The translations under genes and the position numbers were made by a program. A DNA stretch of 51,750 nucleotides, taken from the NCBI RefSeq assembly GCF_009687865.1, contig NZ_BLAE01000083.1, positions 1 to 51,750 on the forward strand, read 5' to 3'. Source of the DNA: Acrocarpospora macrocephala. GTDB taxonomy: Bacteria > Actinomycetota > Actinomycetes > Streptosporangiales > Streptosporangiaceae. The stretch's first letter is position 1, and each line of letters starts with the position of its first letter. Under the pieces are notes generated by a model, which did no database searches, was not told the DNA's origin, and worked only from the letters and a program-made list of their open reading frames with translations. This document shows, piece after piece, positions 25,008 to 45,530 of this stretch.

Positions 25008-25027
25008 TATCAACGGCCTTGTTGACA
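25008..25027. promoter_or_regulatory. TetR-type operator copy 1 (TATCAAC-N6-GTTGACA)
   Basis: Inverted repeat TATCAAC-GGCCTT-GTTGACA, a one-mismatch match to the shared TGTCAAC-N6-GTTGACA consensus. It lies 85 bp before the start of the acyl-CoA ligase gene at 25112. Confidence 0.75.
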
Positions 25028-25111
25028 CATGGCCGCTGGCGCGTTTCGATGCCGTTCAGACATTCACCCCCTCCCGGGTGGTGGCGCCACAACAGCAAGG
25101 AGGTGAGCGTC

Positions 25112-26647
25112 GTGCTGGACGTCAGGACCGCCATGCGTCGCTCCGCAGAGTTCCACTGGGACCGCCCCGCCATCGCCAGCGACGGCCGTCAGTTGACGTT
25201 CGGTGAGGTCTGGCGGCGCGGGACGCGGCTGGCCGGCGCGCTCCTCGCGGTCGGCCTCGAACCCGGCGACCGCGTGGCGGTCCTCGAGGACAACTGCGTC
25301 GAGGCGGCCGACTTCTACATCGGCTCCGCCGTCGCGAACCTCATCCGCGTGCCGCTCTACCGGCGCAACTCGTCGGCCGCGCACCGATACATGCTCTCGG
25401 GCACCGGGTGCAAGGCCGCCGTCGTGGCCGAGGAGTACGCCCACGAGATCAAGGACATCGCGGCCGATCTCGGCATCACGCTGATCGTCCGCGACTCAGG
25501 CTACGAGGACTGGCTCGCGTCGTTCCCCGACACCGATCCCGACCCGCGCGTCGAACTCGACGACCCCTTCATCATCCGCCACTCGGCGGGGACCACCGGC
25601 AGGGCCAAGGGCATCGCCTACACCCACCGGGCCTGGATGAACACCACCCGCGACTGGTTCTTCATGCTGCCCCCGGTCGAACCGGGGGACAGGTGCCTGC
25701 ACGTGGGCCCGATCAGCCACGGATCGGGGTACCTGTTCCTGCCCGTGTGGCTGGCGGGCGGGTGCAACGTGCTGGACCGCAGATTCCAGGCCGACGGCTT
25801 CGTCGAGCGCGTCGCGCGGGACGAGATCGGGTGGTTCTTCGCGGTCCCCACCATGATCGCCGACATCGTGGCCGCGGTCGACGGCAGAAAGCAGGACCTG
25901 CCGTCCCTCAAGGCCGTGATGATCTCCGGTGCGCCGATCAGCGTCCGCACCGCGCGGGCCGGGCACGAGGTGTTCGGGGACAGGCTGTTCCAGATGTACG
26001 GCCAGACCGAGGCCGTACCGGTCTCCTTCATGGGATCCAAAGAGTGGTTCACTGAGGTCCCCGGGTCCGAGCCGATCGTCTCGGCGGGCCGCGTGATGCC
26101 GTTCGCCGAGCTGGAGATCCGGGACCCGGACAACAACTCCCTGCCCATCGGCGAGGAGGGCGAGATCGCCATCCGCTGTGACGGACAGATGACCGGGATC
26201 TGGGGCGACCCCGAGCTGAGCGACCGCCGGCTGCGGGACGGCTGGGTGCTCACCGGCGACGTCGGCCGGCTCGACCGGAACGGCTACCTCTACGTCGTCG
26301 ACCGCGTCGACGACATGATCGTCTCCGGCGGCTTCAACATCTGGCCCGCCGAGCTGGAGCAGGCGATCCAGACGCTCCCGGACGTGCGGGAGGTCGTCGT
26401 CTTCGGCGTGCCGCACGACAAGTGGGGCGAGGCACCGATGGCCGTGGTCGTGAAGCCCGCGGACGCGGACCTGGACGAGGACACGGTCATCGAGACCTGC
26501 GCGCGCCTGCTGGGCTCCTACAAGAAGCCCCATACGGTCGTGTTCCGGGACAGTCCGCTGCCGCGTAGCCCGGTCGGCAAGATCCAGCGCAAGGTGTTGC
26601 GGGAACCGTACTGGGCCGGGGAACAGCGCCGCGTGCGCGGCGCCTGA
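25112..26647 (+). CDS. Acyl-CoA synthetase / AMP-dependent ligase
   Basis: A 511-residue ANL-superfamily enzyme that activates a carboxylic acid through an acyl-adenylate to its CoA thioester. The P-loop reads RHSAGTTGRAKGIAYTH, slightly unusual before the SGTTG core. Other motifs: MYGQTEAVPVSF, DGWVLTGDVGRLDRNGYLYVVDRVDDMIVSGGFNIWPAELE and the C-terminal catalytic lysine in SPVGKIQRKVLRE. GTG 25112 is chosen because a full AAGGAGGTGA ribosome site ends 5 nt before it; GTG 25103 and the longer frame to 25019 are less likely. It follows operator copy 1 and is probably the substrate-activating enzyme of the catabolic cluster. Confidence 0.9.
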   Translation: MLDVRTAMRRSAEFHWDRPAIASDGRQLTFGEVWRRGTRLAGALLAVGLEPGDRVAVLEDNCVEAADFYIGSAVANLIRVPLYRRNSSAAHRYMLSGTGCKAAVVAEEYAHEIKDIAADLGITLIVRDSGYEDWLASFPDTDPDPRVELDDPFIIRHSAGTTGRAKGIAYTHRAWMNTTRDWFFMLPPVEPGDRCLHVGPISHGSGYLFLPVWLAGGCNVLDRRFQADGFVERVARDEIGWFFAVPTMIADIVAAVDGRKQDLPSLKAVMISGAPISVRTARAGHEVFGDRLFQMYGQTEAVPVSFMGSKEWFTEVPGSEPIVSAGRVMPFAELEIRDPDNNSLPIGEEGEIAIRCDGQMTGIWGDPELSDRRLRDGWVLTGDVGRLDRNGYLYVVDRVDDMIVSGGFNIWPAELEQAIQTLPDVREVVVFGVPHDKWGEAPMAVVVKPADADLDEDTVIETCARLLGSYKKPHTVVFRDSPLPRSPVGKIQRKVLREPYWAGEQRRVRGA

Positions 26648-26672
26648 GGCCCGCGAGCTCCTCGATGGCGAC

Positions 26673-26692
26673 TGTCAACATACATGTTGACA
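26673..26692. promoter_or_regulatory. TetR-type operator copy 2 (TGTCAAC-N6-GTTGACA)
   Basis: TGTCAACATACATGTTGACA has 9-bp perfect arms and a 2-bp centre. It lies in the gap between the acyl-CoA ligase stop and the SDR gene, 97 bp before the chosen SDR start. Confidence 0.85.
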
Positions 26693-26789
26693 TTGGCAGA
26701 CCAAGAGGCCTATCAATAGGCCTCACATGCGCCAGGAGACGATGAAGGAGTTCGGCGATGATCATGATGTACGAGACGAGGGGCGGCCG

Positions 26790-27629
26790 GTGACCCGCCA
26801 TCTGGGCAAAGCCGTCCTTGTCACCGGGGCCGCGAGGGGGATCGGCCGTGCCGTGGCCGAGACCTTCGCCGCGGAGGGCGCCGACGTCGTCGCGTGCGAC
26901 GTCGGCGCCCCCGTCCAGGGAGCCCAGTCCACGACCGCCTGGCGGGACGACCTCGACGGGACCGCCAGTTCCGTACGCGCCCTGGGCCGGCGCTGCCTCG
27001 CCGTCCCCGTCGACGTGCGGAGCCAGGCGTCGCTGGACGAGGCGGTCGCCCGCGGTCTCGAGGAGTTCGGGCGCCTGGACGTCGTGGTCGCCAACGCCGG
27101 GATCATGCAGTCGGCGCAGTTCTGGGAGATCGCCGAGGAGACGTGGCAGGCGGTCCTCGATGTCAACCTCGGCGGGGTCTGGCGGACCGCCAAGGCGGTC
27201 GCGCCGCACATGATCGAGCGCCGCTCGGGAGTGATCCTCGCCACCGCGTCGGTCCAGGCCCGCAGCGCGCGCAAAGGGCTGGCGGCCTACACGGCGTCGA
27301 AGCACGGGCTGCTGGGCCTGATGAAGAGCCTCGCGCTGGAGCTCGGCGATCACGACGTCCGGGTCAACACCGTCCTGCCCGGCGCCGTGCACACACCGAT
27401 GATCGACAACGATGAGACGGGCCGGCTCGGCGGGGACTCGCCTCGAACCGCGTTCTTCCGGAAGATGGCGGCGCTGCGCAACCGCTCCGCTCTCCCGCCG
27501 TCCGCCGTCGCGGCGGCGATGTCGTGGCTGGCCTCGGACGAGGCCGGGCACGTCACGGGCGCGGAACTGCAGGTCGACGCGGGATCGCTGATCCTCCCGG
27601 GGCTGAACCACGCACCCGTGATCGACTGA
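26790..27629 (+). CDS. SDR family oxidoreductase, mycofactocin-type
   Basis: A 279-residue SDR with TGAARGIGRAVA cofactor motif, VVANAGIM, LATASVQA catalytic Ser and YTASK. Compared with classical SDRs it has a long insert after the second beta strand (CDVGAPVQGAQSTTAWRDDLDGTASSVRALGRR) and the segment GAVHTPMIDNDE, both hallmarks of the mycofactocin-coupled SDR subfamily, in which the NAD is bound permanently and mycofactocin takes the electrons. The start is uncertain: GTG 26790 (GAGGGG upstream) is preferred, with ATG 26742 and 26727 as alternatives. It is downstream of operator copy 2 and likely oxidises a pathway alcohol. Confidence 0.82.
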   Translation: MTRHLGKAVLVTGAARGIGRAVAETFAAEGADVVACDVGAPVQGAQSTTAWRDDLDGTASSVRALGRRCLAVPVDVRSQASLDEAVARGLEEFGRLDVVVANAGIMQSAQFWEIAEETWQAVLDVNLGGVWRTAKAVAPHMIERRSGVILATASVQARSARKGLAAYTASKHGLLGLMKSLALELGDHDVRVNTVLPGAVHTPMIDNDETGRLGGDSPRTAFFRKMAALRNRSALPPSAVAAAMSWLASDEAGHVTGAELQVDAGSLILPGLNHAPVID

Positions 27630-27705: not shown

Positions 27706-27725
27706 CGTCAACGGAGTTGTTGATA
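27706..27725. promoter_or_regulatory. TetR-type operator copy 3 (CGTCAAC-N6-GTTGATA)
   Basis: CGTCAAC-GGAGTT-GTTGATA keeps the TCAAC-N6-GTTGA core of the family exactly. It lies 240 bp upstream of the importer's binding-protein gene. Confidence 0.65.
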
Positions 27726-27864: not shown

Positions 27865-27884
27865 TGTAAACAGAGGCGTTGACA
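27865..27884. promoter_or_regulatory. TetR-type operator copy 4 (TGTAAAC-N6-GTTGACA)
   Basis: TGTAAAC-AGAGGC-GTTGACA matches 13 of 14 arm positions of the consensus. It lies 81 bp before the ATG of the binding-protein gene, close to the expected promoter. Confidence 0.7.
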
Positions 27885-27964
27885 ACCCTGCGGCCGGTAA
27901 TTATCGTTCCGGGTCACATGTCCGGATCACATTGGTTTCCGGCCTTGAGACATCGGAGAGCGAC

Positions 27965-29119
27965 ATGGTCGTCTTGCGGCTTCGCCATGCCCGGATAGTG
28001 GCCGCCACCGCGGTGATGCTCGCGATGGCAGCGTGCGGCGGTGACGGCGGGACATCGTCGAACACCCCCGGCGCGCCCTCGGCGAGCACCCTGAAGCTGG
28101 GCGTCTGCGTGCCCAACGGTCCTGGCCTCGCGGGTGTCGGGGAAGGTATAGAGAAGGGCGCCGACCTGGGCGCCCAGAAGGTCTCCGCCGACGGCGGGCC
28201 GGCCGTCGAGATCGTTCCGATCGACACCGGTCAGCTGAATACCGACCTCGCCATGGAGAACGCGCAGAAGGCGGTCGAGCAGAACGGCGTGCAGGTCGTC
28301 CTGTGCTCCGGCTCCAACGTCGTCTCGGCGATCGTTCCCTATCTCGAACGCCGGGGAGTGGCCAGCCTGCTGATCTCCAGCAGCGCCACGCCGTACACCA
28401 ACGGCGCCAAGCTCGCCCAGCAGATGCAGGCGCTGCCCGCGACCGAGGCGTCGGCGATGTGGGACTTCCTCGCCTCCGGAGGGCCCGCCGCCCGCCGCGT
28501 CGGGGTGCTGTACGTCGACTACGAGTTCGGCCAGTCGATGGCCACGGCGGCGCAGGACGCGGCACGGAAAGCCGGCCAGGAGGTCGTCGCGGTCGAGTCC
28601 TACCCGCAGGGCAGCACTGACGTGCGGTCTCAGCTGGCGAAGGTCCTCGCCGCGAACCCGGACGCCATCTTCCTGGCCTCCACCTCCGGAGACGATGCCG
28701 GTCTCGCCGTGCGCCAGGGGCGCGAGCTCGGCTACTCCGGTGTCTTCCTGAGCAACTCCGGCGCGAAGACAGCGGCCCTGTCGTCCCTCCCGACCGCGCG
28801 GGACGGCGTCTACGTGTCGGGCAACGATGTGCCCGCGGCCACGCCCGGGCCGCTGTCAGACCTCGTGGCGAGGACGACCATCCACGCCCTGCTGACCTAT
28901 GACTCCGTCGTCGAGGCGGGCACCGCCGCGAGGGCGGTCGGCGGGTCGATCACTGGCCGGGCTCTGATCGACGAGATCCGCCGCGCCGGCGGCAGCGCGC
29001 CGACCGCCGGAAAGTACACCTTCCGGCCCGACGGCAGCACGGACATGGCATTCGGAGTGTTCCGCGTGTCTGCGAGCGGCTTCGAGCAGGTGCACACCTA
29101 CACGCCGTTGGCCGGCTGA
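27965..29119 (+). CDS. Branched-chain-type ABC transporter substrate-binding lipoprotein (LivK-like)
   Basis: A 384-residue periplasmic-binding-fold protein (PF13458 type). The leader RHARIVAATAVMLAMAAC ends in a lipobox with Cys24. The mature chain has LGVCVPNGPGLAGVGEGIEKGADLGAQKV, VVLCSGSNVVSAIVPYLERRGV, VGVLYVDYEFGQSMATAAQDAARKAGQEVV and a DGVYVSGNDVPAATPG segment. ATG 27965 has GGAGAG upstream; the longer frame from 27524 lies in the promoter region. In catabolic clusters such Liv-type receptors often bind aromatic or alicyclic acids rather than amino acids. First gene of a five-gene importer operon behind operators 3 and 4. Confidence 0.9.
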   Translation: MVVLRLRHARIVAATAVMLAMAACGGDGGTSSNTPGAPSASTLKLGVCVPNGPGLAGVGEGIEKGADLGAQKVSADGGPAVEIVPIDTGQLNTDLAMENAQKAVEQNGVQVVLCSGSNVVSAIVPYLERRGVASLLISSSATPYTNGAKLAQQMQALPATEASAMWDFLASGGPAARRVGVLYVDYEFGQSMATAAQDAARKAGQEVVAVESYPQGSTDVRSQLAKVLAANPDAIFLASTSGDDAGLAVRQGRELGYSGVFLSNSGAKTAALSSLPTARDGVYVSGNDVPAATPGPLSDLVARTTIHALLTYDSVVEAGTAARAVGGSITGRALIDEIRRAGGSAPTAGKYTFRPDGSTDMAFGVFRVSASGFEQVHTYTPLAG

Positions 29120-29130
29120 GAGAGACTGTC

Positions 29131-30012
29131 ATGACCGCTGTGCTGTCTCACGGGCTCTCGTCCGGTGCTCTCGCCGCGCTGTTCACGGTCGGGATCGCGC
29201 TGGCCTGGCGGGTCGTCGGCCTCATCGACTTCCATCTGCCGGCCGTCTTCGTCGTGGCCGGCTATGGGTCGGTGTCGTTCCAGGACCTCGGGCTGCCGCT
29301 GCTGCCCTCAGCCGTGCTGGGGGTCGGCGTGGCCGCGGGTTACGCCGCGCTGCTGTTCCTGCTGGTGCACCGGCCGCTGTTGCGCCGCGGAGCGAATCCG
29401 GACGTCGTACTCATCGCGACGCTCGGACTGCTCGCGATGGCACAGGCGACGCTGGGATGGGTCTACGGGCCCGTCCGCCGCTATCCCTTCTCCGGGGTGC
29501 AGGCCACGGTGGAGATCGTCGGCTTCCGTTTCAGCGCGGCCGATCTGGCCGCCATCGGACTGGCGATTCTCCTGATCCCGGCGCTGCTCACGTTCTTGCG
29601 GCGGACCTCGCTCGGCCTCTCCCTCGAGGCGCTCTCCGAGAACCGGCAACTCGCTCTGGTGACCGGAGTGAACGAACCCGCGGCACAAGTACTGACCTAC
29701 GCCCTGGTGGCGGTCTTCGCGGGCGCGGCCGGAGTCGTGTCCGGTGTCGTCGCGGGCGTCGATCCGGCTATCGGCGTCGGGCCGTTCCTCGTGGCCTTCG
29801 GCGCGGTGCTGGTCGGTGGCCACCAGTCGCTGGTGCGCCCGGTCGTGGCCGCCGTGCTGCTCCAGATCGTCGTCGCGTTGATCAGCTGGCAACTGCCCGC
29901 CCAATGGGATCGGACGGTGCTGTTCACCGCGATCGTCGCCACGTTCCTCACCCGTCGCATCGTGGTGCGCCAGGTCCAGCGCCGGCGGGTCACGCAACTG
30001 GCGGCGTCATGA
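29131..30012 (+). CDS. Branched-chain-type ABC transporter permease (LivH-like)
   Basis: A 293-residue polytopic permease of the BPD_transp_2 family. It starts LSHGLSSGALAALFTVGIALAWRVVGLIDFHLPAVFVVAGYGS, equivalent to the LivH N-terminus, though the usual NFAHG-type motif is altered to LIDFHLPAV. About eight TM segments follow, with YALVAVFAGAAGVVSGVVAGVDPAIGV and VGGHQSLVRPVVAAVLL near the end. It lies 11 bp after the receptor gene and overlaps the LivM-like gene by 4 bp. Confidence 0.9.
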   Translation: MTAVLSHGLSSGALAALFTVGIALAWRVVGLIDFHLPAVFVVAGYGSVSFQDLGLPLLPSAVLGVGVAAGYAALLFLLVHRPLLRRGANPDVVLIATLGLLAMAQATLGWVYGPVRRYPFSGVQATVEIVGFRFSAADLAAIGLAILLIPALLTFLRRTSLGLSLEALSENRQLALVTGVNEPAAQVLTYALVAVFAGAAGVVSGVVAGVDPAIGVGPFLVAFGAVLVGGHQSLVRPVVAAVLLQIVVALISWQLPAQWDRTVLFTAIVATFLTRRIVVRQVQRRRVTQLAAS

Positions 30013-30944
30013 CCTACCTGCTGGCGGTCCTGCTCACGATCTGCATCTGGACGGTCGTCGCGCAGGGACTGGTGCTCGTCTTCGGGCACGGCGGCGTGTT
30101 CTCGGTGGCCCAGATCGCGTGCATGGGCGTCGGCGGATACACCGCGGCGCTGATCGCGTCCGGCTACGAGAGCCCAGGGCTCGGGTTCCTCCTGGCGCCG
30201 GTCGTCGCCGCGGCGGTCGGGGCGGTGATCGGGCTCGCCGCTGTCGCGGGCGCGGGCGAGAGCGCCCTGCTCGTCACCTTCGCGGCGCAGTTCGTGTTCG
30301 AGGATGTGGTGACCAACCTCCGGGGGCTCACGGGAGGCGCCAACGGCATCTCCGCGATACCCCCGCTCACCGTCAGCGGCGTGGCGCTGCTCGACCCGCC
30401 CGAACTGCTCGCTCTGACGGTTCCGGTCCTGGCTGTGGTCGCGCTCGGGCTGTGGGCACTGACGTCGAGCCCGTGGGGACGCCGGCTCCGGGCCCTGCGG
30501 GACAACCGCCATGCCGCGCCGGCCTACGGCGTCCCGCGGACGGCGCCGCTCGTCCAGGCGTTCGCCGTCTCGGCCGGCGTCGCGGGGATCGGCGGCGCGC
30601 TCTATGTCGCCACCGCCGGATTCGTGTCGCCCCACTCCTTCGGCCTCGACCAGCTGGTGATGGTGCTCACCATCGTCGTGCTCGGTGGCCAGACGCGGCT
30701 CGCCGGTGCCGCCGTCGGCGCGGCCATCGTCGTCCTCCTGCAGCGGCTCCCCGCGTACGTGTCGTTCGGCGGGTCCGTGGACCAGCATCTGCCCCAGTTC
30801 CTCTTCGGTCTGCTCCTGGTGCTCGCGATGCTCCTGCTGCCCAACGGCCTGCTCCGGGAGAGACCGTCGGTACGGATCGAGCCCCGCGGTGACCGGACCT
30901 CGCAGTTCACGACCTGGTTGAGCACCTTGAGGAGAACACCATGA
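30009..30944 (+). CDS. Branched-chain-type ABC transporter permease (LivM-like)
   Basis: A 311-residue permease with the LivM features VFGHGGVFSVAQIACMGVGGYTAALIA near the start, WGRRLRALRDNRHAAPAYGV (cytoplasmic loop) and GTALYVATAGFVSPHSF-like region (here GGALYVATAGFVSPHSF). It is coupled by an ATGA overlap on both sides, to LivH-like and LivG-like genes. The C-terminal tail after the last TM helix is hydrophilic and about 35 residues long. Confidence 0.9.
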   Translation: MTYLLAVLLTICIWTVVAQGLVLVFGHGGVFSVAQIACMGVGGYTAALIASGYESPGLGFLLAPVVAAAVGAVIGLAAVAGAGESALLVTFAAQFVFEDVVTNLRGLTGGANGISAIPPLTVSGVALLDPPELLALTVPVLAVVALGLWALTSSPWGRRLRALRDNRHAAPAYGVPRTAPLVQAFAVSAGVAGIGGALYVATAGFVSPHSFGLDQLVMVLTIVVLGGQTRLAGAAVGAAIVVLLQRLPAYVSFGGSVDQHLPQFLFGLLLVLAMLLLPNGLLRERPSVRIEPRGDRTSQFTTWLSTLRRTP

Positions 30945-31702
30945 CCACTGGGGGCACGCTCGACGTGCTGGACGTCTCGAAGAGCTTCGGCGGGGTCCAG
31001 GCGCTCGACGGCTGCACGTTCTCGATGCGAGGCGGTGGCGTGACGGGGCTGATCGGCCCGAACGGCGCCGGGAAGAGCACCGTCGTCAATGTCGTGACCG
31101 GGTTCGTCCAGGCGGACCGCGGCACGGTGCGGCTGGGCGGGCACGGCCTCCATTCCCTCTCTCCGCTGGAGATCGCCCGGATCGGAGTCGGGCGAACCTT
31201 CCAGGACCTGCGGCTCTTCGACGGGATGACCGTCCTGGAGAACCTGCTCGTTGCCCGGGAGGCGAGCGCCCCCGTCGCGCGACGCGGCAGACGGCGATCG
31301 GCGCGGGGGCCGGGTCTCGACGCCGCCACGGCGGTGCTCGATCGGCTCGGCCTCAGCGACGGCGCCGATCGGTGGGTCCGAGAGCTCTCGTACGCGGAGC
31401 GCAAGCTCGTCTCGCTGGGGCGGGTCCTGATGACCGAACCGCGCGTCGTGTTCCTCGATGAGCCGAGCTCAGGAGTCGACCTTAACGCCCTTGATCACTT
31501 CGGCAACGAGATCCGGACCCTGCGCGAGCGGGGCGCGATGGTCGGGGTGATCGAACACAATGTGGAGGTAATCCGGATGTGGTGTGACGACGTCGTATTC
31601 ATGACACGCGGCCAGGTGCTCCGGCAGGGCAGCCCCGGCGAGGTCTTCGCGGACCCCACGGTGCTGTCGGAGTACGTCGGCGGAGGTGCGGCGCATGCCT
31701 GA
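30941..31702 (+). CDS. Branched-chain-type ABC transporter ATP-binding protein (LivG-like)
   Basis: A 253-residue ATPase: Walker A GPNGAGKST at about 36-44, GRTFQDLRLFDGMTVLENLLVAR after it, signature LSYAERK in place of the canonical LSGGQ (a variant seen in LivG relatives), Walker B RVVFLDEPSSGVDL and His switch VIEHNVEV. It overlaps LivM-like by 4 bp and LivF-like by 8 bp. It works with LivF-like protein as the heterodimeric ATPase of the importer. Confidence 0.9.
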   Translation: MTTGGTLDVLDVSKSFGGVQALDGCTFSMRGGGVTGLIGPNGAGKSTVVNVVTGFVQADRGTVRLGGHGLHSLSPLEIARIGVGRTFQDLRLFDGMTVLENLLVAREASAPVARRGRRRSARGPGLDAATAVLDRLGLSDGADRWVRELSYAERKLVSLGRVLMTEPRVVFLDEPSSGVDLNALDHFGNEIRTLRERGAMVGVIEHNVEVIRMWCDDVVFMTRGQVLRQGSPGEVFADPTVLSEYVGGGAAHA

Positions 31703-32399
31703 CGCGCTCGTCGTGAGGGGGGTGACCGCTGGATACGGCTCCTCCCGCGTCCTCCGCGATGTCGATCTCACCGTCCGGAGTGGTGCGATCACCTGTCTGC
31801 TCGGCGCGAACGGCGCCGGCAAGACGACGCTCGTGCGGGTGGTGTCCGGTTTGATCACCCCGGTCGCCGGAGGTGTCACCGTCGACGGGGCAGCGCTGCT
31901 CGGCACGCCGCCGTGGCATCGGGTCCGGGCCGGGCTCGGCACCTCACTGCAGGAGAACATCGTCTTCCCGGGTGTCTCCGTCCGGCAGAACCTCCTGCTC
32001 GCGGGCCGCGGCCTGCGGCGCAGGGCAAGGAATGAGCGGGCCGCGGAGCTGCTCGACCTGTTCCCGGCGCTGGCCGGCCGGGTCGACGTGCGAGCGGGCG
32101 CGCTCAGCGGCGGCGAGCAACGGATGCTCAGCGTGGCGATGGCGCTGACGCCCCGCCCCACCGTCCTGATGCTCGACGAGCCGTCGATCGGGTTGTCACC
32201 CGTCATGGTGGAAACCATCTTCGATCGCCTCCGGCACGTCCGCGACGCGACGGGCACCTCGATCCTGCTGGCGGAGCAGAACGCCATGGCCGCCCTCGCG
32301 ATCAGCGAGGAGGCCTACGTCCTGCGGTCCGGATCCGTCGTGGCCCACCGCCCGGCCGCGGAGCTACGAACGAGCGAGCAGGTCATGGCGCTGCTGTGA
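31695..32399 (+). CDS. Branched-chain-type ABC transporter ATP-binding protein (LivF-like)
   Basis: A 234-residue ATPase with Walker A GANGAGKTT, LQENIVFPGVSVRQNLLLAGRGL, signature LSGGEQRML, Walker B VLMLDEPSIGLSP and LLAEQN. ATG 31695 lies 8 bp inside the LivG-like gene; GTG 31686 in the same frame is the alternative. It is the last gene of the importer operon, with its stop almost touching the convergent DoxX-like gene stop. Confidence 0.9.
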   Translation: MPDALVVRGVTAGYGSSRVLRDVDLTVRSGAITCLLGANGAGKTTLVRVVSGLITPVAGGVTVDGAALLGTPPWHRVRAGLGTSLQENIVFPGVSVRQNLLLAGRGLRRRARNERAAELLDLFPALAGRVDVRAGALSGGEQRMLSVAMALTPRPTVLMLDEPSIGLSPVMVETIFDRLRHVRDATGTSILLAEQNAMAALAISEEAYVLRSGSVVAHRPAAELRTSEQVMALL

Positions 32400-32748: not shown

Positions 32749-32902
32749 GTGTACTCCATTCTCATTCGGAAACTGATGGGACCTGTTCAGCGGAACGTCG
32801 AGTTCAGCGGTTTCCCGACGAGCACACGGCCGTAGTGCTCGTCGGTCGAATTGGGCCTCGTGTCCGCTGGGCGTACAGGAATGGCTTACTACGAAGCACC
32901 GA

Positions 32903-34897: not shown

Positions 34898-34954
34898 TCG
34901 ACTCTCCAGGTGATCGTTTTCATGCGACAGGGCCGCTGCGGGCGGCAATGGCTG

Positions 34955-35353: not shown

Positions 35354-35427
35354 TTGAATTTCCCTTTCCGTCATTCGCGATTGGCTCGTCTGCGTCTTGT
35401 CGCCGCGTCGCCCTCATGGGCGGTTCG

Positions 35428-37200: not shown

Positions 37201-37239
37201 GGGTCAACTCCTCATTGAGTGCAGCCGAAGACGGTCAGG

Positions 37240-38097: not shown

Positions 38098-38137
38098 GTC
38101 ACGCTGCTCCTCACCACTCCGAGTCCGGAAACGCTGA

Positions 38138-38719
38138 TCACGCGGGCGCGAACAGGCGAGCCATCGGCTCCGCGTAGGGCGGGCCGGCGTGGACAGCCCA
38201 GCTTCGGGTCGTGAGCTCCGCAGGGGAGGTGCCGGCGCGCAGGGCCTCGGCCATCTTCCGCGGATCGAACGAGGGGCCGACGGGGTCAGCCCCGTACTCG
38301 GCTCCGGTCATGTAGGCGGTCGCGTCCTCGGGCTGGGCGAAGTTGTCGATCTGCAGCTCGACCGTGTTTCCGTCGGGGTCCCGGTAGTACAGCGAGGTCG
38401 TCACGCCGTGCTGGATGGGCACCTGCGGCTCGATCCCGGCGGCGCGGAGGTCATCGAACTTCTCCAGCAGCGTCTCGAGGCTGGGGAAGGTGAACGCGCT
38501 GTGCTGCAGGCCGACCGTGAACGGCGTCCGCTCGACCCACGGCTCGGCCGGCGACCCGACCAGCGCGATCCGGTGGTGCTCCTCGTCGAAGGTCAGGAAG
38601 CACATGCCCGGGTTCTCGTAAACGACGTCGGCGCCCAGGACGGTCCGGTACCAGTCGCGCATCTCGGCGACCCGGTTCGTCTGCAACACGACGTGCGCGA
38701 ACTTCGGGGTGGCAGTCAT
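38138..38719 (-). CDS. VOC family protein, extradiol dioxygenase-like
   Basis: A 193-residue vicinal-oxygen-chelate protein. A first module begins KFAHVVLQTNRVAEMRDWYRTVLGADVVYENPGMCFLTFDEEHHRIALV and a second has LQHSAFTFPSLETLLEKFDDLRAAGIEP and YYRDPDGNTVELQIDNF; the His of FAHVV, the His of LQHSAF and the Glu of VELQ fit the 2-His-1-Glu metal site. The size is below that of classical two-domain extradiol dioxygenases (about 300), so glyoxalase-type alternatives remain. ATG 38719 is preferred to GTG 38731, which lacks a spaced ribosome site. First gene of the leftward operon, divergent from the thiolase genes. Confidence 0.82.
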   Translation of the reverse strand: MTATPKFAHVVLQTNRVAEMRDWYRTVLGADVVYENPGMCFLTFDEEHHRIALVGSPAEPWVERTPFTVGLQHSAFTFPSLETLLEKFDDLRAAGIEPQVPIQHGVTTSLYYRDPDGNTVELQIDNFAQPEDATAYMTGAEYGADPVGPSFDPRKMAEALRAGTSPAELTTRSWAVHAGPPYAEPMARLFAPA

Positions 38720-38818
38720 CGTCGTCCCCACATCCTCGTCTGTTGGTGATCACCGGTGCAGCGCGGGCCAACGGTGACCCCGCTTTCACAAACCGGTTTC
38801 GGCCAAAATTAGAACTTA

Positions 38819-38886: not shown

Positions 38887-38906
38887 AATCAACAACACTG
38901 TTGACA
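38887..38906. promoter_or_regulatory. TetR-type operator copy 5 (AATCAAC-N6-GTTGACA)
   Basis: AATCAAC-AACACT-GTTGACA keeps the core exactly and 12 of 14 arm positions. It sits in the 314-bp divergent gap between the VOC gene (leftward) and the thiolase operon (rightward), so it may control both. Confidence 0.72.
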
Positions 38907-39033
38907 GCGGTCCGCAGTGTCGTTACCGTCCCGGGAGAACTGGCTGGCACCCGGTTCGTCCCGCCACGGACACGTTCGGAGCGGGCTGGACTCCTCGCCG
39001 CGCCGAGATCCCTGCCACTGAAATGAGTTGATC

Positions 39034-40341
39034 GTGCCCGCTCTATCCAGACCTGCTGTGGTTGCGGCAGGCAGCTACACGCCGTCGTTCTCGGTCCGCC
39101 GTGGCCGCCGCCGCGTCCTCGTCGCCAACGGCGACGAGGACGCCGTCACCCTGGCGATCGAGGCCGCTCAGGACTGCCTCACCCGGTACGAAGGACCCGT
39201 CGACGAACTCCACCTCGCGTTCGCCCGCCCCGAACTGGTCAACGGCCCGCAGGCCGAGATCGTCCGCGAGGCGGCCGGACTCGACGCCAGCGTCACGGTG
39301 TCGGTCAGCGCCGGCGACTCGCTCGCCGGACTGGCGGCGCTCGCCGCGGCCATGAACGCCGTCCAGGCGGGCCGCGTGCGTTCGGTCCTGCTCGTCGCGG
39401 CGGAGTCCGGTGACGGGGAGCGGGTCTCGGCGGGGGCCGTCGCCGTCCTCGTGGCCGGCAGCGACGCGCCGGCGCTACGACCAGGGGCCCAGCGCAGCGC
39501 CGGCGACGTCGTCTACGGAAACTGGACCGACGGCGATGGCGTGCGGCACATCGGCGACGGCCGTTATCTCGACCGGTACGTCGCCGATCACGCGAAGGCG
39601 GCCCTGGCCGCGCTGGACGGGCCCCCGCCCGCCGCCGTGACCGGCGTGGCCGCCGCGGCGGTGGCCGCCGCCTGCGGGAGCGACCGGTCCGCCGTCCTCC
39701 CGGATCGCGGGGTGGCGGGTCCGCTCCTGGCCGTCCTCGCGGCCGGGTCCGCCGCGACGGGTTCGGCGGCCACCGTGGTCGCGACCACGGCGAGCCGCGC
39801 CGTCGCGCTGAGCATCGAGGTCGACGCGGGGGCCCGGCCCCTCCTCCCGGCCCTCCCCGGGCCCGTCCCGGAGTTGCCGGAGCCGATCGAGGTCCGCTCG
39901 TCGCCGCCGCTGTCGCTGCCGGGCGGCTCGCCCTTCTTCAGGCGGTCCGCGCGGGAGCTGCTCCGGCTGGAGGGCGCCCGCTGCGACGGCTGCGGCCACG
40001 TCGTCTTCCCGCCCTCGCAGCGCCCGGTCTGCCCGTCGTGCCACGGCTACGGCTTCACGCCGGCACCGCTGAGCCGGACCGGCCGCGTCTACACGTCCAT
40101 CGTCAACCGGTTCCTCCCCACCGGTTTCGGCGACCAGATGATCCTCGTCCTCGCCGAGCTGGACGACGGCTCGCGGTACTGGGCGCCGACGTCCGGCATG
40201 GGCCCGGACGAGGTGGAGATCGGCGCGGGCGTCGAGCTGCGGATCCGCCGGTTCACCGGCGACGGCGGCGCACCCGTCTACGCCATGAAGTTCGTCCCGC
40301 CACGCACCGCCCGCGAGACCGAGTCGAGGGATGTCGCATGA
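39034..40341 (+). CDS. Thiolase-like domain / DUF35 OB-fold fusion protein
   Basis: A 435-residue fusion. Residues 1 to about 260 resemble a degenerate HMG-CoA-synthase/thiolase fold (AIEAAQDCLTRYEGPVDELHLAF, LAGLAALAAAMNAVQAGRVRSVLLVAAESG). Where active enzymes carry the nucleophilic cysteine this protein reads SVSAGDSLAG, so the domain is probably inactive. Residues about 300-435 are a DUF35 domain: rubredoxin-like zinc ribbon with Cys-x2-Cys (CDGC) and Cys-x2-Cys (CPSC), then an OB fold (GRVYTSIVNRFLPTGFGDQMILVLAELDDGSRYW). DUF35 proteins bind and assist the thiolase encoded next to them; here that gene follows with a 4-bp overlap. GTG 39034 or TTG 39028 may be the start. Confidence 0.82.
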   Translation: MPALSRPAVVAAGSYTPSFSVRRGRRRVLVANGDEDAVTLAIEAAQDCLTRYEGPVDELHLAFARPELVNGPQAEIVREAAGLDASVTVSVSAGDSLAGLAALAAAMNAVQAGRVRSVLLVAAESGDGERVSAGAVAVLVAGSDAPALRPGAQRSAGDVVYGNWTDGDGVRHIGDGRYLDRYVADHAKAALAALDGPPPAAVTGVAAAAVAAACGSDRSAVLPDRGVAGPLLAVLAAGSAATGSAATVVATTASRAVALSIEVDAGARPLLPALPGPVPELPEPIEVRSSPPLSLPGGSPFFRRSARELLRLEGARCDGCGHVVFPPSQRPVCPSCHGYGFTPAPLSRTGRVYTSIVNRFLPTGFGDQMILVLAELDDGSRYWAPTSGMGPDEVEIGAGVELRIRRFTGDGGAPVYAMKFVPPRTARETESRDVA

Positions 40342-41507
40342 GGAACAAGGTGGCCATCGTCGGAGCGGGCATGACCCCCTTCGGCGAGCACTTCGACCGC
40401 GGGCTCGAGCAGCTCGCCGCGGACGCCTACCGGACGGCGCTCGCCGGCGTCGACAAGGGGATCGACCCCGCCGACATCGAGGCCGGGTTCTTCGCCAACG
40501 TGATGGGCAGCCTGGGCGGCAACGAGATCCCGTCCGGCGCGACGCTGGCCAACGCCATCGGGCTGCCCGGGCTCCCGGTGAGCAGGATCGAGAACGGGTG
40601 TCCGAGCGGCAGCGACTCGATCCGGATCGGCGCGATGGCCGTGGCCTCGGGCGTGCACGACGTCGTCGTGGTCGTCGGGGCGGAGAAGCTGCGCGAGCGG
40701 CCGACCAAGGAGAGCCTGCTCGAGAGCGGCCGGATGGGCCATCCCATCCTTTCCTACGCCAACACCGCGGCGACGATCTTCGCCCCGCAGGCGGCCCGGC
40801 ACATGCACGAGTACGGCACGACCCGCGAACAGCTCGCGATGGTCGCGGTCAAGGCCTGGGACAACGCCGCGCTGAACCCCAACGCCCAGCGCCAGCAGTC
40901 GATCACCGTCGACGACGTCCTGAACAGCCCCATGGTCTGTTCCCCGTTCACCGTGCTGGACTCCTGCCCGCAGTCCGACGGCGCCGCGGCGGTCGTGCTG
41001 TGCCGGGCGGACATCGCGCACCGGTTCACCGACTCCCCCGTCTACATCGCCGGGGTGGGGCTCGCGACCGAAGGGCTCTACTACCACGAGAAGACCCGGA
41101 TGACCGGCTGGGACTGCACCCGGCTCGCCTCCGCTCGCGCGTACGAGATGGCCGGGATCACCGCACGGGACCTCGACGCGGTCGAGCTGCACGACTGCTT
41201 CACCGGCACCGAGATCATGACCTACGAGGATCTCGGGCTCTGCGCGGAGGGCGCCGGGGGCAAGCTCGTCGAGTCCGGCGACACGACCCTGCACGGGCGG
41301 ATCCCGGTCAACCCCAGCGGCGGCCTGCTCGCGAAGGGACACCCCGTGGGCGCCACGGGCGTGGCCCAGGTCGTCGAGCTGTTCGGGCAGCTGCGCGAGC
41401 AGGCCGGCGCCCGGCAGGTCTCGCTGCGCCACGGCAAGGCGCTCCAGCACAACGTCGGCGGCTACTCCGTCGGCATCTCCGTCGTCACAGTCCTGTCACG
41501 GGACTGA
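40338..41507 (+). CDS. SCP2-type thiolase
   Basis: A 389-residue thiolase of the lipid-transfer (SCPx/SCP2) class. Nucleophile Cys88 is in ENGCPSGSDSIR; VELHDCFTGTEIMTYEDLG and NPSGGLLAKGHPVGATG carry the other active-site residues. The C-terminal cysteine of ordinary thiolases is missing, QHNVGGYSVG standing in its place, as is usual in this class. The ATG overlaps the DUF35 fusion stop (ATGA), so the two are made together and probably form a complex. It should carry out thiolytic or retro-aldol-like chain shortening of a CoA ester. Confidence 0.9.
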   Translation: MRNKVAIVGAGMTPFGEHFDRGLEQLAADAYRTALAGVDKGIDPADIEAGFFANVMGSLGGNEIPSGATLANAIGLPGLPVSRIENGCPSGSDSIRIGAMAVASGVHDVVVVVGAEKLRERPTKESLLESGRMGHPILSYANTAATIFAPQAARHMHEYGTTREQLAMVAVKAWDNAALNPNAQRQQSITVDDVLNSPMVCSPFTVLDSCPQSDGAAAVVLCRADIAHRFTDSPVYIAGVGLATEGLYYHEKTRMTGWDCTRLASARAYEMAGITARDLDAVELHDCFTGTEIMTYEDLGLCAEGAGGKLVESGDTTLHGRIPVNPSGGLLAKGHPVGATGVAQVVELFGQLREQAGARQVSLRHGKALQHNVGGYSVGISVVTVLSRD

Positions 41508-41522
41508 GCAGAGAGGCTAACG

Positions 41523-43148
41523 ATGGCTGAGCTCAGCACCCCGGATCTCCGCCGGCTCGTCGAGACCGACCGGGATCTCCGCCGACTCGTGGAGGACCGT
41601 GCCGAGCGGTACACCGACAGGACGTTCCTCCGGTTCGGCGGTTCCGACCTGTCCTACGGCGAGATCGACTCCCTCGCCGACCGTGCCGCCCAAGGCCTGA
41701 TCGCGGACGGAGCAGGCCGCGGCGACGCGGTGGCGATCATGATGCGGAACTCCCCCGACTGGCTGTCCGCCTGGTTCGGCGCCATCAAGATCGGCGCGAC
41801 GATCGTGCCGATCAACGTCGCGCTCCGCGGCGACGGCCTGGTCCACGTCCTGAACGACTCCCGGGCCGCCATCGTGATCGTCGACGCCGACCTGCTCCCC
41901 CAGCTGCAGGCCGTACTGGCGGAGCTCCCCCGCGTACGGCGCGTCGTCGTGCGCGCGGCCGGCGGCCAGACCGGCCACGGCACCGGGCACGCCGACATCC
42001 GGGAGTTCTTCGACCACCCCGCGGTCCGGCCGCCGGCGCTGGACCTGCGCACCAAAGACCCGGCGACCATCCTTTACACCTCCGGTACGACCGGTCCGGC
42101 CAAGGGCTGCCTGCTCCCGCACGGACAGTACGTCGCCGCCGCGCACCAGATGGCCGTCAACCTCGAGTACGACCGCTCCGACACCCTGTACTCGTGCCTG
42201 CCGTTGTTCCACATCAACGCGCAGAACTACTCCGTGCTCTCCGCCTGGACCACCGGCGCCACGCTGGCCCTGGACGCGACGTTCACCGCGTCCGGCTTCT
42301 GGCGGCGGATCATCGACACCGGCGCCACCGCGTTCAACATCATCGGTGGCATCCCGCAAATTCTCTGGAACCAGCCGCCGTCCGAGCTGGACCGGGCGCA
42401 CCAGGCCCGGGCCGCCTTCGGGGTGCCGGTGCCGCTGGAGATCTGGGAGCAGTGGGAGGAACGCTTCGGGGTGCGGATCGTGTACGCCTACGGGATGACC
42501 GAGAACGGGCTGCCGACGCTGTTTCCGTACGCCAACACCCCGGCGCCCGCGCACCTGCGCGGATCGGGCGGGCAGGCCAGCGCCAGTGCGGAGGTCGCGA
42601 TTCTGGACGAGGACGACCGGCTCGTCCCCGCCGGGACGGTCGGCGAGATCGCCACCCGGCCGAAGATCGCCCACACGATGATGCTGGAGTACTTCGGCAA
42701 CCCGGCCGCGACGGTCGCCGCGATCCGCAACAGCTGGTTCCACACCGGCGACCTCGGCTACCTGGACGAGGAGGGCTACCTCTTCTACGTCGACCGCAAG
42801 AAGGACGCCATGCGCCGCCGGGGTGAGATGGTGTCGAGCTGGGACGTCGAGTCCGTCGTGCGCAAGCACCCGTCGGTAGCGGACTGCGCCGCGTACGGGG
42901 TCCCCTCGCCGCTCGGCGAGGAAGAGATCATGATCGCCGTGGTGCCCGAGGCGAGTGGCGAGTTCGACCCCGCCGCGCTGCTGGAGTTCTGCCGCGAGCG
43001 GATGGCCTTGTTCCAGCTTCCGCGCTACGTCCGGGTCGTCGCGTCCCTCCCCAGGACCCAGACCGAGCGGATCGAGAAGTACAAGCTCCGCGCGGAGGGG
43101 ATCACGGCGGACACCTGGGACGCGACAGTGTCCCCCAGCGGACGCTGA
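41523..43148 (+). CDS. Acyl-CoA synthetase / AMP-dependent ligase (CaiC-like)
   Basis: A 541-residue ANL enzyme with canonical P-loop TILYTSGTTGPAKGCLLPH, YAYGMTENGLP, SWFHTGDLGYLDEEGYLFYVDRKKDAMRRRGEMVSSWDVE and a C-terminal lysine in TQTERIEKYKLR. It lies 15 bp after the thiolase gene in the same operon. It is the second acid-CoA ligase of the cluster and only loosely similar in motif detail to the one at 25112, so they probably activate different intermediates. Confidence 0.9.
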   Translation: MAELSTPDLRRLVETDRDLRRLVEDRAERYTDRTFLRFGGSDLSYGEIDSLADRAAQGLIADGAGRGDAVAIMMRNSPDWLSAWFGAIKIGATIVPINVALRGDGLVHVLNDSRAAIVIVDADLLPQLQAVLAELPRVRRVVVRAAGGQTGHGTGHADIREFFDHPAVRPPALDLRTKDPATILYTSGTTGPAKGCLLPHGQYVAAAHQMAVNLEYDRSDTLYSCLPLFHINAQNYSVLSAWTTGATLALDATFTASGFWRRIIDTGATAFNIIGGIPQILWNQPPSELDRAHQARAAFGVPVPLEIWEQWEERFGVRIVYAYGMTENGLPTLFPYANTPAPAHLRGSGGQASASAEVAILDEDDRLVPAGTVGEIATRPKIAHTMMLEYFGNPAATVAAIRNSWFHTGDLGYLDEEGYLFYVDRKKDAMRRRGEMVSSWDVESVVRKHPSVADCAAYGVPSPLGEEEIMIAVVPEASGEFDPAALLEFCRERMALFQLPRYVRVVASLPRTQTERIEKYKLRAEGITADTWDATVSPSGR

Positions 43149-43209: not shown

Positions 43210-43884
43210 GTGGAGACCCCCGAGCCGCCTAACCCCCGCATCTCGCGGCGCCAGGCCTCGGCCGAGGAGAGCAGGCGCAAGCTTCTCGAGGCCGCCCTTT
43301 CCCACTTCTCCCGCCGGTCCTACGACGAGGTCACCGCCGCAGAGATCACCGACACCGCCGGCGTCGCGGCCGGTCTGCTGTTCCACCATTTCCAGAACAA
43401 GCGCGGCATCTACCTGGAGGCGCTGGCCGAGGCGACGCGCCGGCTCGAGGCCGCGCACGACACCGATCACGAGGCCGAGCCCGGCGTGCAGGTGCGCCAG
43501 ATGCTGCACCACCACTTCACCTATCTCATCGAGAACAGGGAACTCGCGCTCAACGTGATCCTCGCCCGCAACGCCGTCGGGCACGAGGCGTCCGACGCGT
43601 TCGAGCTCACCAGGTGGGACACCATCACCTGGGCCTGCCGGCTGCTCGACCTGGATCCCGACCATCCCGCGCTGCGCCTGATGTGGCGGACCTTTGGCGG
43701 TGCCTCGGACCAGCTGACCGTCACCCTGCTGCAGACCGGCCGGCCCTACGCCATCGACTCCCTCGTCGAGGCGCTCGTCGAGATCCTGGCAGGCGCGTTG
43801 CGGGGCGCCGCCGTACTGGACCCCGAGCTCGAGGTCGGCAAGGCGGTGGACGAGCTCAGGCGGCACAAGCCGTCGGCGAGGTAG
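43210..43884 (+). CDS. TetR family transcriptional regulator
   Basis: A 224-residue repressor. The TetR HTH is RRKLLEAALSHFSRRSYDEVTAAEITDTAGVAAGLLFHHFQNKRGIYLEAL (about residues 22-72), followed by an all-helical ligand domain with TRWDTITWACRLLDLDPDHPALRLMWRTFGG. GTG 43210 has GGAG 5 nt upstream; GTG 43177, with a leaderless-type -10, adds 11 residues. It is the only TetR gene in the window, sits at the centre of the catabolic cluster, 61 bp after the ligase gene, and is the best candidate for the protein that binds the seven TGTCAAC-N6-GTTGACA sites. The inducer would be a CoA ester or the substrate acid. Confidence 0.88.
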   Translation: METPEPPNPRISRRQASAEESRRKLLEAALSHFSRRSYDEVTAAEITDTAGVAAGLLFHHFQNKRGIYLEALAEATRRLEAAHDTDHEAEPGVQVRQMLHHHFTYLIENRELALNVILARNAVGHEASDAFELTRWDTITWACRLLDLDPDHPALRLMWRTFGGASDQLTVTLLQTGRPYAIDSLVEALVEILAGALRGAAVLDPELEVGKAVDELRRHKPSAR

Positions 43885-43896: not shown

Positions 43897-44103
43897 TCAG
43901 GTGTCGTCCTTCACGTCGCCGACCAGGGAGATCGCCTCCATCGGGCAGGCGTACGCGGCCTCACGCAGCTCGCTCTCGGTCCACTGCCCGGACGGCAGGA
44001 AGACCGCCTGCCCCTCGTCGTCGAAGTCGAACGCGCCCGGGGCGTGCTGCACGCACATGCCGACCCCGGCGCATCTGTCGTGGTCGACCTCGGCGGCTGT
44101 CAT
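43897..44103 (-). CDS. Ferredoxin, P450 redox partner
   Basis: A 68-residue single-cluster ferredoxin: CAGVGMC (Cys-x5-Cys) near residues 11-17 and a third Cys in ACPMEAI near the end, leaving no second cysteine in the first motif. This pattern fits the 3Fe-4S ferredoxins that feed bacterial CYPs. The charged middle section FDFDDEGQAVFLPSGQWTESELREAAYACP is typical. The ATG overlaps the P450 stop by 4 bp, so the two are co-translated. No ferredoxin reductase gene is present. Confidence 0.92.
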   Translation of the reverse strand: MTAAEVDHDRCAGVGMCVQHAPGAFDFDDEGQAVFLPSGQWTESELREAAYACPMEAISLVGDVKDDT

Positions 44104-45344
44104 GACTCGTGGAAGGTGACGTGCAGCTGGGTGAGGCTGCGGGAGACCACCGTCGGCGCGTAACGCAGCTCCTGCTCGTGGATCGTGTAGCGGGGGAACG
44201 CCTGCGACAGGCCGCGGAACGCCTCCTCCGCCTCCAGCCGGGCGAGCGGGGCCCCGAGGCAGGTGTGGATCCCCTGGCCGAACGCGGTGTGCTTGTTCGG
44301 CCTGCGCGCGATGTCGAGCCGTTCCGGGTCGGTGAAACCGGCGGGATCGCGGTTGGCGGCGTGCTGCACGAGCAGCACCCGGTCACCGGCCTCGATCCGC
44401 TGGCCGGCCAGCTCCAGCGGCTCCTTCGCCCAGCGGGCCTGGGCCCGGATCGGCCCGTCGAAGCGCAGCACCTCGTCCGCGGCGGAGCGCGCCAGCGTGG
44501 GGTCCGCGCGCAGCCGGGCCCACTGGTCGGGGAACTGGTCGAACGCGACCATGCCATTGGCCAGCAGGTTCATCGTCGTCTCGTGGCCGGCGAACACCAT
44601 CAAGATCGCGTTTGCGACCACCTCGTCGTCGGTGAACGCGTCGCCGCCGTCCGCGGCCTGCAGCATGCCCGAGATCAGGTCCTCCCGGGGATCCCGCCGC
44701 CGCTCGGCGATGACCGGCTTGAGGAACTCGGCGAGATCGTGCATCGCCTGCTCGCCCTTGCGCATCCGGTCGGTGTCGTTGCCCCGTACGAAGATCACCG
44801 CCCCCAGGTCCTCGGACCACTTCCGCACCGACTCCCGGGCCTCGGCGGGTACGCCCAGGTACTCCGCGATGACCACCACCGGGAGGGTGAACGCGAAGCG
44901 GGCGAAGAAGTCGACCTCCCGCTGTCCCCGCATCGGCTCGATGAGCGAGCTGACGAGCTCCTGGATCCGCGGCCGGAGCACCTCGACGCTGCGCGGGGTG
45001 AAGGCCTTGTTGACCAGCTTGCGCATCCGGGTGTGGTACGGCGGATCCTTCCACACGAAGATCTGCGACAGCAGTCTGAAGAGCTGCTGGTACTGGGACG
45101 ACGCCTCGCTGAGGTCCTCTCCGAACGGACCCGAGAAGCGGTCCGAGGACAGTTTCGTGTGGTTCCGGAAGCCTTCGACGACCTCCGGGTATCCGGTGAC
45201 GATCCAGCCGTTCCACCGCTTGTTCCAGTAGACGGAGCGGGTCTCCCGGAGCCGCCGGTAGTACTGGAACGGCCGGTCGATCGCCTCGGGCGACAGCAGG
45301 TCGTCGAGATCGGGTGGGTTGTCCGGCAGGACTGTCTCGCTCAC
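44100..45344 (-). CDS. Cytochrome P450
   Basis: A 414-residue soluble bacterial P450. Heme motif AFGQGIHTCLGAPLAR with Cys362, I-helix oxygen-activation motif AGHETT at 252-257, and ExxR (EVLR) at 291-294; the KDPPYHTRMRKLVNKAFTPR region near 100-118 is the usual C-helix segment. It should hydroxylate a pathway substrate, fed by the ferredoxin encoded next to it. Its start at 45344 lies 86 bp from operator copy 6, and it is divergent from the E1-like gene. Confidence 0.93.
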   Translation of the reverse strand: MSETVLPDNPPDLDDLLSPEAIDRPFQYYRRLRETRSVYWNKRWNGWIVTGYPEVVEGFRNHTKLSSDRFSGPFGEDLSEASSQYQQLFRLLSQIFVWKDPPYHTRMRKLVNKAFTPRSVEVLRPRIQELVSSLIEPMRGQREVDFFARFAFTLPVVVIAEYLGVPAEARESVRKWSEDLGAVIFVRGNDTDRMRKGEQAMHDLAEFLKPVIAERRRDPREDLISGMLQAADGGDAFTDDEVVANAILMVFAGHETTMNLLANGMVAFDQFPDQWARLRADPTLARSAADEVLRFDGPIRAQARWAKEPLELAGQRIEAGDRVLLVQHAANRDPAGFTDPERLDIARRPNKHTAFGQGIHTCLGAPLARLEAEEAFRGLSQAFPRYTIHEQELRYAPTVVSRSLTQLHVTFHES

Positions 45345-45429
45345 TGCCGCCTCCGTTCGTATCCGCTCTTACGGGCGCGTCGCCGCACCTCTGCTCGCCG
45401 GCCCGACTGTAGGCAGTGCCTCGCCGAAG

Positions 45430-45449
45430 TGTCAACACAGTCGTTGACG
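45430..45449. promoter_or_regulatory. TetR-type operator copy 6 (TGTCAAC-N6-GTTGACG)
   Basis: TGTCAAC-ACAGTC-GTTGACG, one mismatch in the last arm base. It lies 86 bp upstream of the leftward P450 gene and is centred 76 bp from copy 7. Confidence 0.78.
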
Positions 45450-45500
45450 TACCTGGAGACAGGGGGCGGACGCTGTCGCTCGTCACCCAGCGATGAGACC

Positions 45501-45530
45501 AGCTATGTCAACGGGAATGTTGACATAGCT
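45501..45530. promoter_or_regulatory. TetR-type operator copy 7, extended palindrome
   Basis: The best copy. Arms AGCTATGTCAAC (45501-45512) and GTTGACATAGCT (45519-45530) are perfectly complementary over 12 bp around a 6-bp centre, GGGAAT. It lies 55 bp before the TTG start of the E1-like gene, in the divergent gap with the P450. Confidence 0.88.

Follow-up and report, generated by a model that had tools for sequence, protein, structure and literature searches.

Seven near-identical inverted repeats, TGTCAAC-N6-GTTGACA, link the transcription units of a catabolic gene cluster of Acrocarpospora macrocephala, and they are probably the operators of a single TetR repressor that is encoded on another contig (C30:74564-75208), beside most of the remaining genes of the set, rather than within the cluster itself. 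The stretch analysed here, referred to as the window, is the entire contig C83 (NZ_BLAE01000083.1; 51,750 bases) of the draft genome G000 (12.1 Mb, 166 contigs).

Operators and promoters of the window cluster

The pattern TGTCAAC-N6-GTTGACA was scanned with up to three mismatches allowed, the reversed pattern serving as a control. Exactly seven matches were found in the window, starting at positions 25008, 26673, 27706, 27865, 38887, 45430 and 45506, of which two are perfect, three carry one mismatch and two carry two. Shuffled versions of the window sequence contain 0.74 matches on average (maximum 4), and none of the 100 shuffles reaches seven. The same seven positions, with a 6-bp spacer, had been noticed in an earlier reading of the sequence (the original prediction), as had their intergenic placement (seven of seven) and their assignment to different gene groups, namely, an acyl-CoA ligase, a short-chain dehydrogenase/reductase (SDR), a Liv-type importer (two sites), VOC/thiolase-type units and P450/E1-like units (two sites); all of this is reproduced here. 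Likewise, there is no eighth match at this threshold anywhere in the window, and the proposed extent of the cluster, about 25 to 48 kb, agrees with its homology to the cluster of genome G106, which spans positions 24933 to 47929. We conclude that the seven sites very probably represent one operator for one regulator.

One arm of the operator doubles as the sigma-70 -35 box. At operators 2, 4, 5, 6 and 7, TTGACA lies in the gene-proximal arm and a -10-like hexamer is found 17 or 18 bases on. Operator 2 (26673-26692; perfect match), upstream of the SDR gene, is followed by a possible -10 box TATCAA at 26711-26716 (spacer 18), and operator 4 (27865-27884), the proximal importer site, has TTGACA in its right arm and TATCGT at 27902-27907 (spacer 17). 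Operator 5 (38887-38906), between the divergent VOC and thiolase-type units, has the weakest -10 box of the five (TACCGT, 3/6; 38924-38929, + strand, spacer 17). The gap that separates the P450 unit from the divergently transcribed E1-like unit contains two sites: operator 6 (45430-45449) fits a P450 promoter on the - strand (TACAGT, 45411-45406, spacer 18), and operator 7 (45506-45525; perfect match), which sits within a longer palindrome, combines TTGACA at 45520-45525 with the best -10 box, TCTAAT (5/6; 45543-45548, spacer 17). Operator 1 (TATCAACGGCCTTGTTGACA; 25008-25027), upstream of the acyl-CoA ligase gene and with a G106 counterpart at C171:181431, contains TTGACA but only TTCGAT (3/6) as a -10 box, and operator 3 (27706-27725), the distal of the two sites before the importer, is devoid of TTGACA.

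The same geometry recurs beyond the window. For 54 sites with at most two mismatches from eleven sequences (108 site-strands), TANNNT is found at a spacer of 17 bases in 14 cases and of 18 bases in 10, against 0.8 expected jointly. With the window excluded, the count is 20 of 94 site-strands versus 0.8 expected (P = 5e-22), and TANNNT follows the TTGACA of operators in 17 of 42 cases compared to 1 of 37 for other TTGACA in the same DNA. Six sites from Sphingobium and Sphingopyxis lack this arrangement, so that the geometry is actinobacterial in our sample. Across the 54 sites, the operator spacer favours a purine at its first and a pyrimidine at its last position (42/54). Given that the arm is a -35 box with TANNNT 17 or 18 bases on, repression through blocking of RNA polymerase appears likely.

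The presence of a -35 box in one arm at most sites could also mean that the repeats are strong promoters which look palindromic by chance. We consider this extremely improbable, given that the distal arm is conserved as well: in the seven paired sites of the window and G106, 2 of the 98 arm positions have changed versus 14 of the 42 spacer positions (P = 6e-7), and the shuffles described above argue in the same direction. Because the flanks near the sites are also well conserved in places, this contrast is one between arm and spacer.

A second operator cluster on contig C30

Genome-wide, the operator pattern has 262 matches with up to three mismatches versus 120 for the reversed pattern. Twenty-five matches contain at most two mismatches (7 in the window, 2 on C30 and 16 elsewhere) and eight contain at most one (five in the window and one each on C30, C5 and C6). 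The scan uncovered a second cluster, on C30, which the original prediction could not have seen from the window, and the motif turned out not to be unique, with 16 of the 25 sites lying elsewhere. On C30, six matches with up to three mismatches fall within 6.5 kb, where 0.14 would be expected from the genome-wide rate, and they surround the TetR gene at C30:74564-75208. The neighbours of this gene, named after their G041 orthologues, encode a DUF35 protein, two thiolase-like proteins, an FMO-like monooxygenase, a cyclase-type protein and an acyl-CoA dehydrogenase pair. The C30 protein belongs to the TetR family, as phmmer matches it to many solved TetRs (best E-value 5.4e-26), and its G041 orthologue contains TetR_N and TetR_C_24 domains. 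By the contig ends, its gene is at least ~64 kb away from the window operators. Whereas the original prediction placed the boundary of the pathway and regulon within the window, the operator cluster and complementary genes on C30 indicate that the regulon very probably extends onto that contig.

Recognition helices and the choice between two TetR proteins

We compared 51 TetR loci, including 38 loci of C30 TetR relatives from family, class and order genomes (the best 20 from the family search, 16 new ones from the second search and 2 new ones from the third), five of 11 plasmid records and eight loci of the type found in the window. A site was counted as near if located within 1.5 kb of either end of the TetR gene, some loci being clipped by contig ends. 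Loci encoding the helix [DE]RA[STN]-x-YYY have a near operator in 22 of 29 cases with up to three mismatches and in 18 of 29 with up to two, compared to 2 and 0, respectively, of the 22 loci with other helices, the eight window-type loci included (Fisher P = 2e-6 at both mismatch limits), whereas the reversed pattern yields no near site across all 51 loci. In 14 of the 29 helix-bearing loci, which come from Actinomycetota and sphingomonad plasmids, the site is found 34-224 bp upstream of the matched TetR stretch.

Proteins related to the C30 TetR are encoded in 7 of 200 family genomes at E-values of 1e-35 or better and in 9 of 394 class and 6 of 297 order genomes at 1e-30 or better (own genome included in each case), as well as on plasmids of Rhodococcus, Sphingopyxis and Sphingobium, with more distant relatives on those of Thermus; at 1e-15, 116 of the 200 family genomes are matched, mostly through other TetRs. 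A DNA pattern for the helix, which would miss DRAN-type helices, has one match each in G000 (on C30), G106 and G127 and none in 16 other genomes tried; three further matches among 396 phylum genomes were discarded as they are not TetRs. A C30-type TetR is present in seven family genomes, in which sites with at most one mismatch number 8, 8, 5, 3, 3, 2 and 0 (G000, 8; G106, 8; G127, 5), and in the genome with none (G017), the TetR gene is located on a 4-kb contig with one three-mismatch site. Two genomes of the same genus without a C30-type TetR have one such site (G027) and none (G079), and 14 of the other 193 family genomes have two or more. Among the class genomes, seven of the eight with a C30-type TetR have sites with at most one mismatch.

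The original prediction assigned the operators to the TetR gene at 43210-43884, the only one seen in the block, which stands in the unit behind operator 5 and would thereby regulate itself. The notion of a single-regulator regulon stands, inasmuch as there is one operator and very probably one regulator, but this particular protein does not fit. Being the sole TetR in the block says little, since 85 TetR-like stretches in the genome score against one TetR profile. More in its favour, and a point against the C30 protein, the gene accompanies the whole cluster in G106 (92% identity) and lies about 1.5 kb from operator 6 (1546 bp from 45430, just beyond the 1.5-kb limit, its own locus ending ~50 bases before that operator), so that the window TetR may have some role. 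However, its recognition helix is different. Its relatives are found in 8 of the 200 family genomes at E-values of 1e-15 or better, own genome included, the six apart from G000 and G106 being 31-40% identical, and an operator within 1.5 kb is present at none of these eight loci with up to two mismatches and at one with three. Furthermore, G127 and G041 contain an operator cluster beside a C30-type TetR, and a window-type TetR was not found in either; in G011, such a cluster also adjoins a C30-type TetR, and a distant window-type relative is encoded on a separate contig. We consequently set the window TetR aside as the regulator; on these comparisons, it is unlikely to read the seven operators. 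Slightly less likely still is that both proteins read the sites, or that the window TetR tunes one operon via another, unseen operator while the C30 TetR controls all of them: both genes are present in the G106 cluster, but the recognition helices of the two proteins differ.

A pathway split between two loci

Twelve genes from the operator cluster of G041 served as tblastn queries against each of the other clusters. All 12 were found in G106, 11 in G011, 2 in the window and 9 on C30. The two window genes are the ligase and the P450, LTP2 being matched only by a thiolase paralogue with 31% identity. The nine on C30 encode the TetR, the cyclase, two dehydrogenases, two thiolase-like proteins, the DUF35 protein, the FMO and an enoyl-CoA hydratase, whereas the ligase, the P450 and DUF2889 were not found in the 54 kb of C30 that were searched, other ligases and P450s elsewhere in the genome being outside this search. 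With two genes in the window and the other nine on C30, the eleven genes common to G011, G041 and G106 are split without overlap. In G106, both gene sets are interleaved in one operator-bearing cluster, which includes a C30-type TetR.

At the DNA level, blocks longer than 800 bases between 24933 and 47929 of the window share 91-97% identity with G106, one 82-base block being 85% identical. The G106 stretch to the left of 24933, with the TetR encoded there, is absent from the window, and so are segments of ~1.8 kb at 26777/26783 (FMO), 1.7 kb at 27651 (cyclase and DUF2889) and 2.9 kb at 43885/43892 (two thiolase-like genes and DUF35). Loss in the window lineage appears to be the simpler reading, with gain in G106 as the alternative, because the core gene set of G041 and G011 includes the ligase and P450. 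The C30 core proteins share just 40-64% identity with those of G106, so that C30 carries a diverged set, not the missing pieces of the window relocated. That C30 belongs to the genus is evident from its right flank, which from 85633 onwards shares 93-96% identity with G106 and G127; in the compared stretches of these two genomes, nothing matches C30:26001-85633 over at least 300 bases at 78% identity or more. The edge at 85633 is sharp, as if different islands had been inserted at the same place, and no tRNA was found at the island edge in the six loci searched.

Apart from the company kept by the window TetR, several observations weigh against the assignment of the operators to the C30 protein. 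Sixteen of the 25 sites with up to two mismatches lie outside both clusters, only two of the six C30 sites belong to this category, and the operator before the C30 TetR gene itself is weak (three mismatches, 87 bp upstream); moreover, the genome is a draft. The helix groups were drawn after the data had been seen, some genomes contributed several loci, and two neighbouring G233 genes share sites. Seven of the 29 loci with the helix lack a site within 1.5 kb, with farther sites on the same contig for some of them (G041:C771:3989, G471:C37:49405, G280:C28 and Sphingopyxis). G318 encodes a TetR with the helix but has no sites with at most one mismatch genome-wide, and G116 has three such sites and no such TetR was found there. 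Finally, the enoyl-CoA hydratase is matched at no more than family level (35-37% identity) in all clusters, so that eight of the nine C30 core genes are firm. Even so, the C30 TetR remains the probable regulator of the seven window sites.

Proposed mechanism and implications

The sites and their conservation, the second cluster, the pairing of helix and operator, the -35/-10 geometry and the complementary gene content fit a model in which a dimer of the C30 TetR would bind TGTCAACR-N4-YGTTGACA. At most sites, the bound protein would cover the -35 TTGACA in one arm and exclude RNA polymerase, and we infer that it acts as a repressor rather than an activator. A pathway acid or its CoA ester might release it from the DNA. 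The enzymes of C30 and the window presumably act on one substrate. Judging by family names, this could be a cyclic terpenoid, steroid-like or aromatic acid, to which point both the core proteins (the CoA ligase, the acyl-CoA dehydrogenase pair, the thiolase-like and ChsH2-type DUF35 proteins, the P450 and the FMO) and the additional ones, namely, the Liv importer, the mycofactocin-type SDR, the OYE, the ring hydroxylase and the FAA hydrolase.

In a broader perspective, and with the evidence about evenly balanced, the TetR lineage with the helix [DE]RA[STN]xYYY and a fixed 20-bp operator might mark catabolic islands of Actinomycetota and sphingomonads with a portable regulatory label. The diverged copy on C30 would then run the window cluster in trans, following the loss of the TetR and nine other core genes from the latter. 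Since the label is unchanged even where protein identity has dropped to 33-48%, such a copy could take over orphaned operons. In that case, two complementary loci would together hold a single pathway, and the split, if confirmed, would cleanly exemplify how a diverged repressor that reads the same site takes over regulation. More immediately, an operator can be proposed for an uncharacterised TetR lineage, and a rule connecting recognition helix to DNA site could be used for annotation of catabolic regulons in many draft genomes. The present case also cautions that the closest TetR gene need not encode the regulator. With its ligand identified, the TetR could be developed into a sensor together with its -35-overlapping operator.

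Gene content of the window cluster and outlying sites

The cluster starts with the core acyl-CoA ligase gene (25112-26647, + strand; start at ~25112 by tblastn), the product of which scores 361 bits against NCBIfam PRK06187, under the cut-off of 476, and is 72% identical to the G041 core ligase. It is followed on the + strand by a mycofactocin-coupled SDR (26727-27629, start uncertain), which passes the TIGR03971 cut-off (306.1 versus 300 bits), and by a Liv-type ABC importer (27965-32399) consisting of a binding protein (Peripla_BP_6, 4.3e-39), two permeases and two ATPases, all Liv/Urt profile matches being under the NCBIfam cut-offs. The - strand unit at 32401-38731 encodes DoxX-like, FadH/OYE-type oxidoreductase, SnoaL-like, aromatic-ring FAD hydroxylase, FAA hydrolase and VOC proteins, of which the FadH/OYE-type oxidoreductase matches the mycofactocin OYE_2 profile under the cut-off. 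The region 39028-43148 (+ strand) encodes a synthase/BbsA-like protein with weak profile matches only, a thiolase/lipid-transfer protein and a second acyl-CoA ligase. Next to it are the TetR gene of the original prediction (43210-43884, + strand), with a helix of the other type (VAAGLLFHHF), a single-cluster 4Fe-4S ferredoxin (43897-44103, - strand; Fer4_15, Fer4_13) and the core cytochrome P450 (44100-45344, - strand; 63% identity to G041). The last gene (45585-47909, + strand) encodes a stand-alone transketolase/E1-like thiamine diphosphate enzyme (Pfam Transketolase_N and PDH_E1_M; 193.7 bits against the aceE profile, cut-off 859.9), which stands behind two operators and is 96% identical in G106. 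Near the right contig end, the frame at 50965-51738 resembles a DDE transposase, as judged by eye.

Nine of the 16 outlying sites were examined, C44, C71, C93, C99 and C105 being left out and the C109 pair representing a different palindrome. Seven of the nine (on C6, C3, C7, C8, C13 and, twice, C24) are inside long open frames. A one-mismatch site at C5:115243-115262 coincides with the very beginning of a long - strand frame and is possibly an extra regulon member or a chance match. The site at C24:78487-78506 (TATCAATCCTCAGGTTGACA), located upstream of a gene that by eye is ftsZ-like, is letter-identical in all four other genus genomes searched; it was rejected as a regulon member given that it is unchanged in G027 and G079, both of which are without a C30-type TetR. 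The only close pair among the 25 sites, apart from those in the window and on C30, is on C109 (4105-4170), where two palindromes with TTTCAACC-type arms start 46 bp apart upstream of what, by eye, is an ArsR-like gene. Pairs with the same 46-bp step are found in G027 (C162:1741/1787) and G079 (C5:164958/165004), and the pair is probably the operator of the adjoining ArsR-like regulator.

Comparison with known systems

No paper naming this operator was found among those listed in our literature searches, and it may have been described elsewhere. By sequence, KstR2 (4w1u/4w97; E-value 3.5e-17) and 3vpr (5.4e-26) rank among the solved structures closest to the C30 TetR. The latter of the two and the TetR of the Thermus plasmid record L087 we take to be PfmR. 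The Thermus plasmid protein differs in its helix, LSKAALYHH, and there is no such operator in the 16.5-kb locus.

KstR, the regulator of mycobacterial lipid/cholesterol catabolism, is similar in that it is a TetR repressor with a palindrome in many intergenic gaps, a CoA-ester degradation regulon and promoter overlap; however, its operator, TnnAACnnGTTnnA, has a 2-bp centre and partly overlaps the -10 box (PMC1995591), whereas the present operator, AAC-N6-GTT, has a 6-base centre and is positioned at -35. MftR is likewise a TetR, with a long-chain acyl-CoA effector and a mycofactocin context, but its operator is T-N2-GGCA-N5-TGCC-N2-A (PMC8728441). The mycofactocin-type SDR and OYE profile matches in the cluster, above and below the respective cut-offs, would be compatible with binding of the sites by MftR or a KstR-type steroid regulator. 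Nevertheless, this is very improbable, considering that both published operators differ from that of the window and that no stretch in the genome exceeds the MftR cut-off (TIGR03968; best 107.7 of 224.9 bits). Nor does either of the two TetRs reach the NCBIfam KstR cut-off, the window TetR scoring 29.5 of 280 bits and the C30 TetR having no match at an E-value of 1e-10; assignment of the sites to the KstR or MftR regulon was accordingly rejected.

EdcR from Caenibius tardaugens resembles the present system as a TetR repressor of steroid degradation operons with a proposed operator over a promoter box, but that operator, TnnCnnTACnAnTnGTAnnGnnA, differs in sequence and overlaps the -10 box (PMC8700777), so that it was discarded as a match. 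The parS sites of alphaproteobacterial repABC replicons contain the same two 7-base arms, yet in reverse order and with two bases between them (GTTGACAGCTGTCAAC), and are ParB-type sites (PMC9040568) rather than TetR operators; they too were rejected. KstR3 of Mycolicibacterium neoaurum is similar in that, as a TetR repressor, it controls an operon encoding an aldolase and a DUF35 protein (PMC10398937). Overall, a TetR regulon of this sort is of a known kind, whereas the pairing of operator and helix, its spread and the split arrangement look new.

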